From Desulfobacterales bacterium (GTDB lineage Bacteria > Desulfobacterota > Desulfobacteria > Desulfobacterales > JAIPEE01), in the NCBI GenBank assembly GCA_021737275.1, contig JAIPEE010000023.1, positions 1 through 62,610 on the forward strand: a stretch of DNA of 62,610 bases, given 5' to 3'. Under the pieces are notes generated by a model. That model had not been told where the DNA came from. It made no database searches and saw nothing but the letters and a program-made list of their open reading frames with translations. This document shows positions 20,510 to 39,508 of the stretch, piece by piece. Each line of letters begins with the position of its first letter. Within the stretch, counting starts at the first letter, position 1. The position numbers and the translations under genes were made by a program.

Positions 20510-21682
20510 ATGAAAAAATTTAAAGTTAACAAAACCTACAAAGAGATTAATGACAAGATAAAGTCCGGTGATGTGGTTGTGGTCACCGCAGAAGAGATTA
20601 TTGATATCGTCAAAAAAGAAGGTGCTGTCAACGCGGCAAAAAAAGTGGATGTTGTCACAACCGGTACTTTTTCACCGATGTGTTCATCCGGTGCGTTTAT
20701 CAATTTCGGTCACTCCAAACCGGGTATCAAGGCTTCTGAAATCTATCTGAATAATGTATCTGCGTATGGTGGGCTGGCAGCAGTTGACACTTATATCGGT
20801 GCAACTGAGCCTTGCCGGGAAGATCCGCTGAATAAAGTCTATCCCGGTGAATTTAATTATGGCGGCGGTCATGTTATTCAGGATCTTCTTGAAGGTAAAA
20901 AGGTTCACCTGAAAGCAACCGCTTACGGTACAGACTGCTATCCCGGCAGGGAAATTGAAAAAACCATTACGCTGAACAAGCTGCCTTACGCTGTACTTTG
21001 TAATCCAAGAAATGCGTATCAGAATTATAACTGCGCCATTAATATGAAGAAAAAGATAATTTATACATATATGGGAACATTGAAACCCAGGGTTGGCAAT
21101 GCCAATTACTGTTCGGCCGGTGAACTCAGTCCGCTTTTTAATGACCCGTTTTATAAAACGATTGGCCTGGGCACACGGATATTTCTGGGTGGCGGTGTGG
21201 GCTATGTAACATGGCAGGGTTCTCAGCATAATCCTGATGCAGAAAGGACCGAAAAGGGGGTTCCCCTGACGCCGGCCGGAACATTATGTGTAATGGGCGA
21301 ACTTAAACAGATGAACTCTGATTATCTGAAAGGTGTTAGTATTCGTGGATACGGTTGTTCCATGTCAGTGGGGCTGGGCATACCGATTCCCATTTTGAAT
21401 GAAGAGATGGTACAGTATACGGCCATTTCGGATGAAGAGATTTTTACTAATATTGTAGATTACGGCAATGACTATCCCGATGGTATTGCAAACAGTTATG
21501 GAAAAGTCAGTTATGCCGAACTTAAAAGTGGTTCGATTACGATTAAGGGAAAGACGGTGCCGACGGTGCCACTCTCCAGTATGGTAAAGGCCAGGGAAAT
21601 TGCAGATACCTTGAAACAGTGGATTTCAAAAGGAGAATTCTTTCTTGGTGAACCGCAGTTTACGTTGCCGAGCTGTGAGTAA
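20510..21682 (+). CDS. Homocysteine biosynthesis protein (DUF39/HcyBio family)
   Basis: A 390-residue HcyBio (DUF39) protein. In methanogens and sulfate reducers this family is required for making homocysteine from aspartate semialdehyde and sulfide without acetylated or succinylated homoserine. The family-typical segments TTGTFSPMCSSGAFINFGH, GATEP and YGTDCYPGREIEK are present, including the conserved cysteines. No CBS or ferredoxin domain is fused, unlike some archaeal members. The start lies 17 bases after the M23 gene with AGAAGAG upstream. Its presence supports an anaerobic sulfur-metabolising host. Confidence 0.88.
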   Translation: MKKFKVNKTYKEINDKIKSGDVVVVTAEEIIDIVKKEGAVNAAKKVDVVTTGTFSPMCSSGAFINFGHSKPGIKASEIYLNNVSAYGGLAAVDTYIGATEPCREDPLNKVYPGEFNYGGGHVIQDLLEGKKVHLKATAYGTDCYPGREIEKTITLNKLPYAVLCNPRNAYQNYNCAINMKKKIIYTYMGTLKPRVGNANYCSAGELSPLFNDPFYKTIGLGTRIFLGGGVGYVTWQGSQHNPDAERTEKGVPLTPAGTLCVMGELKQMNSDYLKGVSIRGYGCSMSVGLGIPIPILNEEMVQYTAISDEEIFTNIVDYGNDYPDGIANSYGKVSYAELKSGSITIKGKTVPTVPLSSMVKAREIADTLKQWISKGEFFLGEPQFTLPSCE

Positions 21683-31715: not shown

Positions 31716-32033
31716 TTATTCTTTTTCGAGTTCAATAGTTACATTTTTAGGCAATGCCAGACCTGCCTCTATCTCTATCGCCTTTAGAATACCTGATGGA
31801 ACTGTGCATGCCGAATGGGGAAGGTATTTAGTTGCCAGTTCATAAGTTTTCGTTTGGCAGATTTTTTTGAAAATCTCTTCATATGGTGTGATCTCAGACA
31901 GCTCTTCAGATAATTTTGTTACATCAGGGCAGCCGCTTTTGATTTTGACGGATACTTTTCCACCTGCAGATGGGGCTACCTCAACCTTGGTAACAAACCC
32001 ACAAATACCGGCAACGATTTTGCACTTTGTCAT
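31716..32033 (-). CDS. Small conserved protein, DUF6951-like
   Basis: A 105-residue protein of unknown function. The frame is open from 32111, but I choose the ATG at 32033, which has AAAGGA upstream and begins MTKCKIVAGICGF. Conserved-looking features are the N-terminal Cys4 and Cys11, SGCPDV, and the C-terminal HSACTVPSGILKAIEIEAG. The four or more cysteines with small size suggest metal or Fe-S binding, which is inference. It is co-transcribed with the PHP phosphatase. Confidence 0.65.
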   Translation of the reverse strand: MTKCKIVAGICGFVTKVEVAPSAGGKVSVKIKSGCPDVTKLSEELSEITPYEEIFKKICQTKTYELATKYLPHSACTVPSGILKAIEIEAGLALPKNVTIELEKE

Positions 32034-32111
32034 TTTGTTCCTTTCCGTTTGTATAAAATATTTTGAAGTAATCGTAAATTCAAGATAGCACTGCTTAAAA
32101 TTATGTGTCAA

Positions 32112-34413: not shown

Positions 34414-34454
34414 TCCCGTGTAAATGATTTTGTTTGAATAAAAGGAGAATAATA

Positions 34455-35303
34455 ATGGGAAATTGTGGTGGACAAGCGGCTGGTACTGTAGGAATTCAGG
34501 ATGGAATTAAAGATCCGGATGCATCAATCAAAAAGTCACTTGGTAGTATAAAAAACAAATTTGTTATCATGAGCGGAAAGGGTGGTGTCGGTAAATCAAG
34601 TGTTTCCGTTAATCTGTCCATAGCACTCGCCAATAAGGGGTATAAGGTTGGAATTATTGATGTTGACCTTCACGGTCCGGATATACCGAGAATGCTGGGG
34701 CTGAAGGGAATGCTGGGGCTGAGTAGTAACAATAAACTGAGTCCGCTTGATTATTCCGAAAATCTCAAGGTTGTTTCAATTGAAGCGCTAACTGCTGATA
34801 AAGATGATGCGATCATCTGGCGCGGCCCGCTTAAATATTCTGCAATTCGTCAGTTTATTGGAGATGTTGAGTGGGGCGATCTGGATTTTCTTTTGATTGA
34901 CTCACCTCCGGGCACCGGAGATGAGCCTCTTACGGTGGCCCAGACGATTTCTGATGCAAAAGCAATTATTGTCACTACACCTCAGGAAGTTTCTCTGGCT
35001 GATGTGAGAAAATCCATAAATTTTTGTAAAACAGTTAAAATGGGTATATTTGGCCTTATTGAAAATATGAGCGGCTATGCTTGTCCGCACTGCGGCGAGA
35101 CACTGGATCTTTTCGGTTCCGGCGGTGGTGAAAAGACAGCAGCGGATGCCGATATCAATTTTCTCGGCAGAATCCCATTTGACGGAAATGTTGTTATGTG
35201 CGGTGATGCCGGTGAATCTTATCAGGAAAAATTTAAAGATTCACTTGTCACTAAAAGCTTTGCTGCTATTGCAGATAAGATGGCTGAGCTGGTAGAAAAA
35301 TAA
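34455..35303 (+). CDS. Mrp/NBP35-type iron-sulfur carrier ATPase
   Basis: A 282-residue P-loop protein of the Mrp/ApbC/NBP35 family that assembles or carries Fe-S clusters. The deviant Walker A is GKGGVGKSS, followed by DVDLHGPDIPRMLG, the switch region DSPPGTGDEP and the cluster-bridging CPHCG near the C-terminus. I choose the ATG at 34455 (MGNCGG) with AAAGGAG upstream rather than the earlier in-frame start at 34434. The N-terminus keeps a single Cys, unlike the four-Cys NBP35 motif. Confidence 0.9.
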   Translation: MGNCGGQAAGTVGIQDGIKDPDASIKKSLGSIKNKFVIMSGKGGVGKSSVSVNLSIALANKGYKVGIIDVDLHGPDIPRMLGLKGMLGLSSNNKLSPLDYSENLKVVSIEALTADKDDAIIWRGPLKYSAIRQFIGDVEWGDLDFLLIDSPPGTGDEPLTVAQTISDAKAIIVTTPQEVSLADVRKSINFCKTVKMGIFGLIENMSGYACPHCGETLDLFGSGGGEKTAADADINFLGRIPFDGNVVMCGDAGESYQEKFKDSLVTKSFAAIADKMAELVEK

Positions 35304-35319: not shown

Positions 35320-35351
35320 AAGGTGAACCCCGCTTAAGCGGGGTTCACCTT
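35320..35351. terminator. Perfect 32-bp palindrome after the Mrp-type gene
   Basis: AAGGTGAACCCCGC and its complement meet at a TTAA centre, giving a 14-bp or longer stem. No T tract follows, so it may stop transcription weakly or protect the mRNA end. It isolates the next operon. Confidence 0.6.
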
Positions 35352-35502: not shown

Positions 35503-36141
35503 ATGAAAGTTGCTATAATTGCAGCGTGTTCTCTGGATGGCAAAATAACGCCCGGGCCGATAGGCAGTAAAGAAGATCGCAGGTTTCTTGAGGAGATGCG
35601 CCTTGAGACGGATGCCGGTATTCTTGGTGCCGGTACATTGAGAAAAGATGATCCTCAAATGTTAGGTCCCAACGGGTGTATACTTGAAAACAGAATCCGT
35701 GCAATTATCAGCTTAACCGGTAATATTCCTTTATCGGATAAACGTTTATTTGAAAATGGCCCTGTTCCAATCATATATACGGCCGGCAAAATGTCAGCAT
35801 CTCTTGAAACGACTTTTGATGAAAAGGCGGAAATCGTTGGTTTGCCTGCAAACCAATATGGCCTTTGTATTCAATCCGTACTGAAGGATCTTGAAAATCG
35901 TGGTGCATCATCTGTTTTAATTGAGGGCGGTGGTGGACTCAACTATTCATGCCTTGCGCAGGGCGTTGTTGATGAAATGCTGGTTACCGTTTCACCGTCG
36001 GTGAATGGCGGTAAGGACAATATTAATCTTCTGGAACGAAACAAAATGCCGGAATTGCCGCAAATAAAGCTTGATTTTGTTTCATGTATTCAAAATAAAT
36101 CCGGTGAAGTTTTTTTAAGGTATTCTGTAAGAAAGGATTAG
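35503..36141 (+). CDS. RibD C-terminal-domain (DHFR-fold) reductase
   Basis: A 212-residue stand-alone RibD_C protein: VAIIAACSLDGKITPG at the start, GAGTLRKDDPQMLG, and IEGGGGLNYSCLAQGVVDEM near the C-terminus, the NADPH-binding and ribose-pocket signatures. RibD_C enzymes reduce ribosylated pyrimidines or pterin-like compounds with NADPH. The N-terminal deaminase domain of true RibD is absent, and no rib genes or FMN riboswitch are visible. First gene of a tight operon with a PP-loop ATPase, a GT2 and folE2. The substrate is probably a GTP-derived heterocycle (inference). Confidence 0.85.
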   Translation: MKVAIIAACSLDGKITPGPIGSKEDRRFLEEMRLETDAGILGAGTLRKDDPQMLGPNGCILENRIRAIISLTGNIPLSDKRLFENGPVPIIYTAGKMSASLETTFDEKAEIVGLPANQYGLCIQSVLKDLENRGASSVLIEGGGGLNYSCLAQGVVDEMLVTVSPSVNGGKDNINLLERNKMPELPQIKLDFVSCIQNKSGEVFLRYSVRKD

Positions 36142-36142
36142 C

Positions 36143-36913
36143 ATGACCTCTAAACATGAAGTGGCGATTCTTTTTTCAGGCGGAACCGACTCTCTTGCTC
36201 TTTATGCATTATATATGGCCGGAAAGCATAGAGATATGGTACCGGCCGGCAAGATACATCTCCTTTGCATGCTGAACGGCATGTCCCGGTTTGACCATTT
36301 CCCGGTTGAAAGATTTAAAACCGCACGGAAAATACTGGCTAAGCAGGCACCCGATTCAGAACCGGTTCCAGAAACCGAGTATACCGAACTTGATACAGGG
36401 CGGCTATTCCAGGGGCTATGGCTTGATCATTATGAAACGCTCATGCCTAAATATAACGGAAAAAACATGGTATGTGTGGCCTGTAAACTGGCCATGCATG
36501 TACGGGCCGTCATCTATTGTGTAAAATATCTGGTCTGTGATCTTGTTGCCGGATACACTGTTAAGCAGTCATATTATCCTGAACAGACCGATGCCTTTAT
36601 GTCCCGAATAATTGAGTTTTCCGGAAACTTTGGTATTGCCACCCACTTTCCGGTGTATGAAGATTTCAGTGATGAGATGGTAACACGGCATGTACTGGAA
36701 GATTTCGGCCTGCCCTCTTCAGGCGGTGGAGAACGGAAATGCCTTTTTGGGCAGACCTATACAACGGCAGCTGAAGAAGATGTGGCTCAGTACCTTGATG
36801 ATATGCTTCCGGTTTTAAATCAGTATGTGGAAAGCAAACTGGAGGGGGACATCAGGGGCGCAACCGCATGTTTCCCTGCCGGCAGAGTAAAAGGTGAGCT
36901 TGCAGAAAAATAA
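36143..36913 (+). CDS. PP-loop ATP-pyrophosphatase-family protein of unknown function
   Basis: A 256-residue protein with the N-type ATP pyrophosphatase P-loop SGGTDSLAL (about 11-19). CVACK near residue 112 and ERKCLFGQTY near 198 supply cysteines arranged as in thiolating or QueC-like enzymes, but I cannot assign it to QueC, MnmA, ThiI or TtuA. The protein should adenylate a carbonyl or carboxyl of its substrate before nitrogen or sulfur transfer. The ATG lies two bases after the upstream stop. Its neighbours suggest a pterin or deazapurine substrate (inference). Confidence 0.7.
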   Translation: MTSKHEVAILFSGGTDSLALYALYMAGKHRDMVPAGKIHLLCMLNGMSRFDHFPVERFKTARKILAKQAPDSEPVPETEYTELDTGRLFQGLWLDHYETLMPKYNGKNMVCVACKLAMHVRAVIYCVKYLVCDLVAGYTVKQSYYPEQTDAFMSRIIEFSGNFGIATHFPVYEDFSDEMVTRHVLEDFGLPSSGGGERKCLFGQTYTTAAEEDVAQYLDDMLPVLNQYVESKLEGDIRGATACFPAGRVKGELAEK

Positions 36914-36926
36914 GTCGGGAGAAGTA

Positions 36927-37730
36927 ATGGTCAGCTGCATTATACCCACATACAACAGGATGACGATGCTGCCCGGGGCCATTGAAAGCGTATTGGGTCA
37001 GACTTTACGGCCGGAGGAGATAATTGTAGTCGATGATGCCTCTGATGATGGTACGTTTGAAATGATTTGTGAAAAATATCCTTCTGTGACATTGCTCAAA
37101 ACAGAAGGTGTCGGGCCGGGGTATGCCAGGAATGCCGGCTTCAAAGTTTCCAGCGGTAACATCATCATGTTTCTTGATTCGGATGATATCTGGTTACCGG
37201 ATCATGTTGAAACGCTTTCAAACATTGTTGGCGGCGGGAGAAATGTTGCATACGGTATTACAGAAACAGCAGATCGTTTTAACAATACATCATTTATGAT
37301 TCCTGAAAATGGGGCGGGCACTTCAGGGGATTGTTTTGAAAATATATGTAAGTGGTGCTTCCTGGTTCCGTCATCAGCAGCTATTACCAGAAAGGCGTTT
37401 GATAATGTCGGCGGGTTTCGAAAGTATGAAATGGGTGAGGACTGGGATCTGTTCATCCGGCTTGCTGAAAAATATCCATTTGGTTTTTCTCCAAAAATAA
37501 TAACAAAACGGATCCTTCACAGCGGCAGCATTTGCTGTAAAAAAGAGATACATGAAAAGATTCTTAACCTTCTTGAAAATATTAAAAATGTTTTAATGTC
37601 TTTTTCAAGGACAACCGGGGATGCTTTAAACTTTATAGAGGCGGCCGGAATCGTGGTCAAAAAAGAGGGGGCAAAATGGCAGACTTTTCAGGAGTTTTAC
37701 ATGGCGTTAAATCGTCAGGGGCTGATCTGA
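36927..37730 (+). CDS. Family 2 glycosyltransferase
   Basis: A 267-residue GT-A fold transferase: VSCIIPTYNRMTMLPGAIES at the start, VVDDASDDGT, the metal-binding DSDD in IMFLDSDDIW, and GGFRKYEMGEDWDLFIRLAE. GGGAGAAG precedes the ATG at 36927; the frame extends upstream to 36894, overlapping the PP-loop gene. There is no membrane anchor. The setting between a PP-loop ATPase and FolE2 is unusual for a surface-polysaccharide enzyme and suggests a small-molecule acceptor (inference). Confidence 0.85.
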   Translation: MVSCIIPTYNRMTMLPGAIESVLGQTLRPEEIIVVDDASDDGTFEMICEKYPSVTLLKTEGVGPGYARNAGFKVSSGNIIMFLDSDDIWLPDHVETLSNIVGGGRNVAYGITETADRFNNTSFMIPENGAGTSGDCFENICKWCFLVPSSAAITRKAFDNVGGFRKYEMGEDWDLFIRLAEKYPFGFSPKIITKRILHSGSICCKKEIHEKILNLLENIKNVLMSFSRTTGDALNFIEAAGIVVKKEGAKWQTFQEFYMALNRQGLI

Positions 37731-38608
37731 AGAAAAATATCTCCAGTTCGGAACACCGCCGGGTTATGGAAATATGCGATGATATTCCCGAACAGGTGCC
37801 ATCTTTTCCAATAAGGATTGACGATGTCGGTATCAGCAGTAAAACAATATGGGTCCGGCTGCCTGAAGGGCGCATTCCGTTTGATGCAGAGATAAGCGTT
37901 AATTTACCCTCCAGCGCACGCGGTATACATATGTCCCGGATTGAAAACTGTATTAGTGAGATGCATAGTCATGAGTTTCGTGATATCGGATGCTATGTGC
38001 AGGTTCTGGCAACTGAAGTGTTAAAGGGACAGAACGGCAACCTCTGCCGGGTTTCTGCCTCCGGTAAAATACCGATGGTTCAGCAGACACCGGCTACAGG
38101 AAAAAAGTCTATTGACTCATTTGAAGTTACAGGCTTTGCCGAAGCGACCCCCAAAGATTGCCGGGTCCGTATCGGCGTCGGCGTTAACCATATTACAGCC
38201 TGTCCCTGTACCCAGGCGTATAATGAAATACTTTCTCAAAAAAGTAACGGCATGCCCATGCCGACTCACAGCCAGCGGTCTGTAACCTGGTTGACCATAG
38301 AAAGAAACGGTGCTGTGCCGGCCTACGTAGAGCTGGTTATGTGTCTGAAAGCATCACTTCATATAACATATGATTTACTTAAAAGACCTGATGAAGCAGA
38401 AATTGTGATGACTGCTCACCGTGCACCACAATTTGCTGAAGATACTACCAGGGAGACAGCCAGGGAAGTGGGAAATCGTTTCGGCTCATTCCTTCCTCCT
38501 GATACATCCGTTGTTATTGCATCTCATAGTTTCGAAAGTATTCATACACATGATGTCAGATGCCGGATAACGACAACGATGGCAGAAATTCTTGACGTTA
38601 ATAAGTAA
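37676..38608 (+). CDS. folE2: GTP cyclohydrolase type IB (FolE2)
   Basis: A 310-residue FolE2/MptA-family enzyme converting GTP to 7,8-dihydroneopterin triphosphate, the entry to folate, pterins and 7-deazapurines. Family segments include VGISSKTIWVRLP, NLPSSARGIHMSRIENC, the catalytic CPCTQAYNE loop, PTHSQRS and RFGSFLPPDTSVVIASHSFESIH. GAGGGGG precedes the ATG, which lies inside the glycosyltransferase gene (55-base overlap), so translation is coupled. The 3' end overlaps convergent hutC by 11 bases. FolE2 is metal-promiscuous and often replaces zinc-dependent FolE. Confidence 0.93.
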   Translation: MADFSGVLHGVKSSGADLKKNISSSEHRRVMEICDDIPEQVPSFPIRIDDVGISSKTIWVRLPEGRIPFDAEISVNLPSSARGIHMSRIENCISEMHSHEFRDIGCYVQVLATEVLKGQNGNLCRVSASGKIPMVQQTPATGKKSIDSFEVTGFAEATPKDCRVRIGVGVNHITACPCTQAYNEILSQKSNGMPMPTHSQRSVTWLTIERNGAVPAYVELVMCLKASLHITYDLLKRPDEAEIVMTAHRAPQFAEDTTRETAREVGNRFGSFLPPDTSVVIASHSFESIHTHDVRCRITTTMAEILDVNK

Positions 38609-39338
38609 GATTTAACAGATTGGGGCTGTTCTCGTCATCAGGTGAAAATGTATCTTCAAAGGCAAGATCACCTCGAATATAATATTGAACATATGTAACC
38701 GGGTTTTTATTTGTATATGTTAATCGTTCAACATAAAATACAGGGTGACCAGCGGCTTCATTAAAGAGTGCTGCAATTTTTTTTGGCATTGTTTCTGCTG
38801 TCATGCGTTGCCAAACTCTTGAGAGAGGTAAATTATACTTTTGAGTAAGCAGTTCATGAATTGAATTGTTTTCCAGGTTTTCCCACAGGATGCCGCCACA
38901 TAAATCCCCCCTTAAATATCTGATCTCATATCGAACGGGGATTTGATCAAAAAAATGTAACCGACGAACAAGAATAATTTGCTGATTGTAGTTCAGTTTG
39001 TCTGTAATCCTTCCGGGTGGATTTGAAATGGTCTTAAGTTCTAAAACGTTTGTTGTGTAAATTACATTAAGATCTTTTGCCTGTTTCCACGAAGGTTGAA
39101 TTTTGAAATATCCCTGGGAAAGCTCACGAGTTTTAACAAAAGTTCCTTTCCCCTGGATTCGTTCAACCCAGCCATCATATACCAGTTCTGAAAACGCTTT
39201 GCGTGCAGTCATACGGCTTACATTAAATTGTTTTGCAATCTGATTTTCAGAAGGCAGCCCATTGGTAAAAAGATGTGACCGGATACCCTGGATGAGATGC
39301 TCTTTAATCTGGGATGATATTGAAACTCTTTTTTTCAT
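38598..39338 (-). CDS. hutC: Histidine-utilisation repressor, GntR/HutC family
   Basis: A 246-residue regulator. The N-terminal winged helix (LPSENQIAKQFNVSRMTARKAF, GWVERIQGKGTFV) is followed by a UTRA ligand domain (YEIRYLRGDLCGG, PVTYVQYYIRGD). HutC represses hut genes and is released by urocanate. I choose the ATG at 39338, since the longer frame from 39374 would place the start inside the operator at 39351-39372. The gene is divergent from hutU. Confidence 0.9.
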   Translation of the reverse strand: MKKRVSISSQIKEHLIQGIRSHLFTNGLPSENQIAKQFNVSRMTARKAFSELVYDGWVERIQGKGTFVKTRELSQGYFKIQPSWKQAKDLNVIYTTNVLELKTISNPPGRITDKLNYNQQIILVRRLHFFDQIPVRYEIRYLRGDLCGGILWENLENNSIHELLTQKYNLPLSRVWQRMTAETMPKKIAALFNEAAGHPVFYVERLTYTNKNPVTYVQYYIRGDLAFEDTFSPDDENSPNLLNLTY

Positions 39339-39350
39339 GGTATTTTTAAA

Positions 39351-39372
39351 GTTGTATATACTTGTATAAAAC
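39351..39372. promoter_or_regulatory. HutC-like operator upstream of hutC
   Basis: GTTGTATATAC is followed by CTTGTATAAAAC: two half-sites related to the hutU-side palindrome. It lies 13 bases before the hutC start, so HutC probably represses itself. Confidence 0.6.
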
Positions 39373-39508
39373 AAATTGAAGCATCGCCTATTTTTATTAT
39401 TCTAAAATAGAATTAAACTCTTTGCTCAATTATAATAAAATATTAATAAAATCAATGTAAATATCTCGTTATAGATCAATTATTTTAGATAAATGAATCA
39501 TATAATTC

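Follow-up and report, generated by a model that had tools for sequence, protein, structure and literature searches.

A jointly inherited four-gene set of Desulfobacterota that may encode a pathway to a thiolated, reduced and glycosylated pterin

Introduction

The ycf genes of Erwinia amylovora and the tgsA-F genes of Staphylococcus encode the related PP-loop enzymes YcfA and TgsB; YcfA and YcfC together form 6-thioguanosine (PMC6225789), and the tgs genes make 6-thioguanine (6-TG; PMC7994395). Here we describe a four-gene operon from a Desulfobacterales bacterium (assembly GCA_021737275.1, contig JAIPEE010000023.1), found within a stretch of 62,610 nucleotides that was analysed as a whole and is called the window, in which the gene of a YcfA/TgsB-like PP-loop enzyme is packed together with genes for a RibD_C-type reductase, a glycosyltransferase (GT) and a FolE2-type GTP cyclohydrolase. 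The PP-loop enzyme shares with YcfA/TgsB the fold of the whole domain, a profile match, the PP-loop, a cysteine (C126, corresponding to YcfA Cys 113) and the K-A-H...YC and Q...EQ segments, but it is only ~22% identical and its family has three additional cysteines, C111, C114 and C200. Whereas the partners of YcfA/TgsB are a desulfurase, a NUDIX protein, a HAD protein and an exporter, those of the operon enzyme are FolE2, RibD_C and the GT.

In TtuA, three cysteines hold a [4Fe-4S] cluster, and TtcA requires such a cluster (PMC6225789); CtaC has the TtcA/TtuA motif, acts in thioamide formation in a natural product and so offers a small-molecule precedent (PMC6772006). The CxxC pair and the third cysteine of the operon enzyme align with those of the TtcA/TtuA/Ncs6 and CtaC iron–sulfur (Fe-S) thiolases, but the operon enzyme is a single domain of 256 aa with a weak profile match to them and a small-molecule gene neighbourhood. 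Similarly, the cyclohydrolase has PF02649 and the catalytic motifs in common with archaeal MptA and bacterial FolE2 but lies under both equivalog cut-offs, and the reductase has PF01872 and its fold in common with the Rib7/ArfC reductases and Rv2671 but lies under the TIGR01508 cut-off.

Glycosylated pterins of bacteria and archaea include cyanopterin, limipterin and solfapterin (PMC3546692, PMC13259868). The product predicted below would resemble them in being a pterin glycoside. To our knowledge, none of the three contains ring sulfur, and we know of no link between the glycosyltransferases of known pterin glycosides and PP-loop or RibD_C genes. A literature search on thiopterin biosynthesis and on the four-gene set, with subscription journals mostly outside its coverage, returned nothing relevant. 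Each of the four enzymes belongs to a known superfamily, and no description of their combination or of the predicted product was found in the literature covered.

Results

Joint presence and absence of the four genes

The four genes are strongly supported as one functional unit that is gained and lost jointly across dozens of Desulfobacterota genomes. In the window, the unit is laid out as follows:

35503..36141, + strand: RibD_C-type NADPH reductase, a single domain of 212 aa (PF01872 and solved-fold neighbours)
36143..36913, + strand: PP-loop enzyme of 256 aa, YcfA/TgsB-like, with a TtcA-like C111xxC114 and C200 (AlphaFold2 model, fold search, hhalign and invariant residues)
36927..37730, + strand: GT2 glycosyltransferase (PF00535; start placed by alignment and a ribosome-binding-like site)
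37676..38608, + strand: divergent FolE2/MptA-type GTP cyclohydrolase paralogue of 310 aa (PF02649 and conserved catalytic motifs)
37676..37730, + strand: overlap of 55 nt between the GT and FolE2 reading frames, repeated in many loci

Close relatives of the PP-loop protein came from two genome contigs (a query with one protein), from 2 genomes among 58 relatives and from 19 further in a 395-genome sample of the phylum. Of the 395 genomes, one identical set of 20 carries the special copies of PP-loop, FolE2 and RibD_C; the genomes are not independent samples, so that a naive probability comes out too strong, although the carriers span nine families. This lock-step of presence and absence is independent of gene proximity and is the strongest evidence for a shared pathway, and because of it the genes can be regarded as one functional unit, whose members almost certainly serve the same pathway. 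The core consists of three genes (PP-loop, FolE2 and RibD_C), with the GT as a usual addition that has a strong match in 19 of the 22 carriers.

A similar pattern was seen in the taxonomic order of genome G341 (46 genomes), where the PP-loop gene was found in 32 genomes, FolE2 in 34 and RibD_C in 32. In the two genomes with FolE2 only (G462 and G465), the FolE2 contigs start inside the GT gene, and the assembly may therefore have lost the genes upstream of it. G449, which has no RibD_C, is 66% complete and carries its PP-loop gene at base 117 of a contig. In G470 (L133:4101-4953), RibD_C lies in two reading frames beside the last 71 residues of the PP-loop gene and FolE2 is gone, remnants that read as a decaying copy of the set. 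Within genus g308, the PP-loop and FolE2 genes occur together in G471–G473 and neither occurs in G467–G470 or G474. Mirror-tree correlations among the four proteins (0.63–0.87), in which species relatedness is uncontrolled, were not used as evidence. No homologues were found in phages and viral contigs, and a plasmid search returned distant TgsB-type and related proteins but no close homologues.

The four genes are contiguous and in the same order in 14 of the 24 loci examined, and a fifteenth (G258) shows the same arrangement interrupted by a contig end. RibD_C adjoins the PP-loop gene in 22 of the 24 loci, and the arrangement is far above chance expectation. RibD_C lies on a contig separate from the rest of the set in G211 and G379, the GT and FolE2 genes lie together on another contig in G025 and G281, and a type III restriction-modification-like gene pair is inserted between the PP-loop and FolE2 genes in one locus (L036 8848-14555). 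Conserved co-occurrence had been proposed as a check on the original prediction, which was made from the sequence alone, and it spoke for the prediction: a minority of genomes have the genes scattered, yet even these possess them together.

That prediction had also placed four tightly packed genes of these kinds at 35503–38608, as the open reading frames and families confirm (PF01872, PF00535, PF02649 and the PP-loop motif SGGTDS). Two of its spacings change: the RibD_C and PP-loop genes are separated by one base (36142) instead of two, and its overlap of the PP-loop and GT genes hinges on GTG 36894 as the GT start. ATG 36927 is the most likely start, given the alignment with relatives and the Shine-Dalgarno-like 'gggagaa' that precedes it, which leaves a 13-base gap. 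The overlap of 55 bases between GT and FolE2 was read correctly: ATG 37676 of FolE2 has 'gaggggg' upstream, and an ATG stands at exactly this distance in many loci (58–61 nt in a few), where some bases of the FolE2 start codon usually belong to a conserved tryptophan codon of the GT as well. The overlap probably serves translational coupling.

The genes flanking the operon vary between families, with recurrence confined to related groups. In three families, a DUF166 gene (PF02593, function unknown) lies directly 3' of FolE2 (L045:5754-6374, L053:5666-6298 and L123:6158-6916) and can be seen as an occasional fifth member. A Ysc84-domain gene adjoins RibD_C in three loci (L045:9520-10206 and L127:4481-5230, assigned by Pfam, and L128:5742-6494, assigned by sequence resemblance), and this neighbour persists even where RibD_C stands apart from the operon.

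Proposed pathway

We propose, with somewhat less than even confidence, a dedicated four-gene pathway that converts GTP to a pterin that would be thiolated, reduced and, as a rule, glycosylated. The FolE2 paralogue would open GTP and reclose it to 7,8-dihydroneopterin phosphate, as its family and conserved catalytic motifs suggest. Using ATP, the PP-loop enzyme would adenylate the ring carbonyl (O6 of guanine, O4 of the pterin), and sulfur from C126 and/or from a [4Fe-4S] cluster on C111, C114 and C200 would then give a 4-thioxopterin, by analogy with YcfA and TtcA. The pyrimidine ring of pterins is the same 2-amino-4-oxo ring as that of guanine, and a YcfA-like pocket could therefore accept dihydroneopterin phosphate, or else GTP itself, in a variant in which thiolation takes place at the GTP level ahead of FolE2. 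RibD_C may reduce the pterin ring with NADPH, like its Rv2671-type relatives, and the GT2 enzyme may attach a sugar, probably at a side-chain hydroxyl. The most economical order would run from GTP through a dihydropterin, its 4-thioxo form and the reduced form to the glycoside. A more specific suggestion, which we hold tentatively, is that an unrecognised natural product or cofactor of Desulfobacterota is a 4-thioxo, reduced, glycosylated pterin formed via an Fe-S-dependent YcfA-type PP-loop enzyme together with the dedicated FolE2 and RibD_C. The original prediction had offered amidation beside thiolation and a deazapurine beside a pterin; thiolation and a pterin are now the favoured options of a product that is itself predicted.

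The FolE2 paralogue

The FolE2 paralogue matches PF02649 at 160.6 bits (E 6.8e-47, cut-off 25) and falls below both NCBIfam equivalog cut-offs, scoring nearer the archaeal MptA model (148.1, cut-off 220) than the bacterial FolE2 model (113.1, cut-off 215). Alignment to the solved N. gonorrhoeae FolE2 revealed conservation of the CPC, HxQR, RPDE, ED and ESIH motifs, which contain the metal-binding and catalytic residues of FolE2 enzymes. A separate canonical FolE2 (E 4e-76 or better) was found in 21 of the 22 carriers, indicating that the special copy is dedicated and is not the folate enzyme; G211 (97% complete) has the special FolE2 only, with no canonical copy. No FolE match over the cut-off was found among the 22 carriers. 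Together with the lock-step described above, this dedicated FolE2 strongly supports the earlier claim that the four genes act jointly in an undescribed pathway of modified-pterin type.

In three genomes, the canonical FolE2 adjoins a PP-loop gene of TtcA-like type that encodes CFLC and, further on, another cysteine, a second and different PP-loop/FolE2 pairing:

L083:6304-7851: pairing in the window's own genome, contig C6
G008:C32:22956-24413: pairing in a second genome
G025:C11:55954-57404: pairing in a third genome

Families f122 and f133 contain a third distinct FolE2-like protein (G200:C3:233198-233890), with counterparts in G248, G271, G292, G312 and G352.

The reductase and the glycosyltransferase

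RibD_C matches PF01872 at 82.8 bits (E 3.6e-23, cut-off 24.1) and the archaeal riboflavin reductase equivalog TIGR01508 at 85.5 bits, below its cut-off of 186.45. The structure model (predicted local distance difference test, pLDDT, 89.2) has as fold neighbours archaeal Rib7 (Z 24.7), Rv2671 (Z 23.3 and 23.2) and the T. maritima dihydrofolate reductase (18.4). The Rv2671 structures near it carry dihydropteridine or tetrahydropteridine rings, and two RibD_C members also match the DfrA36 dihydrofolate reductase model. A role as dihydropterin reductase is thus credible alongside that of a ribosylaminopyrimidine reductase, and the former sits better beside a FolE2 that uses up the ribose.

The second role would imply another branch point. 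The FolE2 reaction would end at, or supply, a ring-opened ribosylaminopyrimidine, whose ribosyl group RibD_C would reduce to ribityl in the manner of Rib7, and thiolation by the PP-loop enzyme would fall on the pyrimidine carbonyl, yielding a thio-ribitylpyrimidine or lumazine-like product glycosylated on the ribityl chain. Such a route would suit the rank of archaeal Rib7 as the nearest relative of RibD_C in both sequence and fold. However, position 12, the LDGK aspartate of Rib7 enzymes, is cysteine in nearly all RibD_C members (aspartate in the window), RibH/RibE-type partners are not among the recurrent genes of the loci compared, and the FolE2 family normally spends the ribose carbons on closing the pterin ring, as is established for FolE chemistry. 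We consider this route unlikely.

The GT matches PF00535 at 95 bits (E 6.1e-27, cut-off 23.3), and its FLDSDD motif is invariant in 16 members. Its profile matches GT2 structures of a generic kind, chondroitin synthase among them, and for this reason no donor sugar is claimed.

The PP-loop enzyme

The PP-loop protein, with SGGTDS at residues 12–17, and 24 members of its family gave no significant match in Pfam or NCBIfam, including the QueC family PF06508. In the AlphaFold2 model (pLDDT 89.5, predicted template modelling score 0.89), the closest solved fold is E. amylovora YcfA (Z 29.2, root-mean-square deviation 1.7, 220 residues), for which the structure entries comprise ATP and GTP complexes, going by their titles. 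ThiI (Z 15.8), QueC (13.9), the nitrile synthetase ArtA (13.8) and LarE (13.6) follow, so that the modelling against QueC and LarE that had been proposed earlier points to likeness with a small-molecule guanine thiolase and not with a tRNA enzyme. The family profile matches YcfA at E 1.6e-12, and hhalign pairs it with three plasmid TgsB-type proteins at 99.1% (E 1.9e-18). Two of these three (L056 and L057) come from clusters that also contain NUDIX, DMT-transporter and HAD genes, joined in one cluster by an aminotransferase class V gene; this gene content matches the described tgs operon (PMC7994395). In a tree, which is unrooted, long branches lead to TgsB. By sequence and model, the operon enzyme is clearly closest to the YcfA/TgsB 6-thioguanine enzymes.

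S12, D16 and S17 are conserved in 23 of the 23 rows that cover the PP-loop site, and a GY..Q...PEQ segment is likewise invariant. C126, which pairs with the cysteine at YcfA position 113, is kept in the window and in 22 of 24 members. C111, C114 and C200 (CxxC plus C) are invariant in all 24 members and missing from the three TgsB-type proteins aligned, and all three pair with TtcA cysteines in hhalign. Taken together, these features suggest that the enzyme is likely to perform sulfur transfer. Distant PP-loop relatives with a CxxC also occur outside the operon (L011:9057-9794, in a surface polysaccharide-like context, and L055:4430-5263).

An enzyme of this fold might instead insert nitrogen, in the manner of QueC or NAD synthetase, to give an aminated pterin (for example, a 2,4-diaminopteridine) or else the amide or nitrile of a deazapurine. 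The fold common to QueC and ArtA would allow it, but YcfA is closer by 15 Z units, no QueC Pfam match was obtained, and the cysteines pair with those of TtcA and, for C126, with that of YcfA, making nitrogen insertion improbable. We judge equally improbable a thiopurine pathway, in which the PP-loop enzyme would make a 6-thioguanine-like product and FolE2, RibD_C and the GT would act on or detoxify thioguanine nucleotides, with a thiopurine-derived antimetabolite as the end product: the nearest PP-loop relative does make 6-thioguanosine, but the desulfurase, NUDIX, HAD and exporter genes of tgs clusters are not recurrent neighbours of the operon, and FolE2 and RibD_C are obligatory partners. 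We regard a role of the PP-loop protein in tRNA thiolation, with its place beside unrelated genes a coincidence, as very improbable despite the fold and three-cysteine motif common to TtcA, TtuA and NcsA, since its nearest relative is a small-molecule enzyme, the genomes checked have separate TtcA-like and TilS genes, and FolE2 and RibD_C occur in exactly the same genomes.

Several observations weigh against the proposed thiolated-pterin pathway. Each of its reactions is inferred, as are their sequence, the atoms involved and the sugar, and its product is predicted; genes for a sulfur donor do not recur next to the operon in the loci compared; and three carriers (G200, G352 and G271) have no strong GT match. 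RibD_C is slightly nearer to Rib7, a ribosylaminopyrimidine reductase, than to Rv2671. Finally, C126 is replaced by serine or alanine in 2 of the 24 members, and the overall hhalign probability with TtcA is weak at 59% (TilS control, 29.6%).

Implications

If confirmed, the product would represent a new class of natural pterin; ring thiolation would be added to pterin biochemistry, and thiolases of thioguanine type would be joined to the GTP cyclohydrolase pathway. The PP-loop, FolE2 and RibD_C core with its usual GT is a concrete set open to expression and assay. Genes annotated as 'FolE2' or 'RibD' in carrier genomes can in fact encode enzymes that belong to another pathway, and neither Pfam nor NCBIfam has a model for the PP-loop family.

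Genomic surroundings

The operon is bordered in the window by the following features:

34434-35303: Mrp/NBP35-type gene upstream of the operon (profile match)
35320..35351, no strand: perfect palindrome of 32 bases, AAGGTGAACCCCGCTTAAGCGGGGTTCACCTT, lying after the Mrp/NBP35-type gene and ahead of the operon (read from the sequence)
38598-39374, minus strand: HutC-like regulator gene, downstream and convergent, with histidine-utilisation genes beyond

The palindrome is absent from the terminator-scan list, as the scan requires a T-run; it is possibly the terminator of the Mrp/NBP35-type gene or an operator. A tie between the operon and the adjoining histidine-utilisation genes was rejected, since these are not neighbours at other loci. 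Elsewhere, the window contains an HcyBio gene (PF01837, sulfur incorporation) at 20510-21682 and a DUF6951 gene at 31716-32111.

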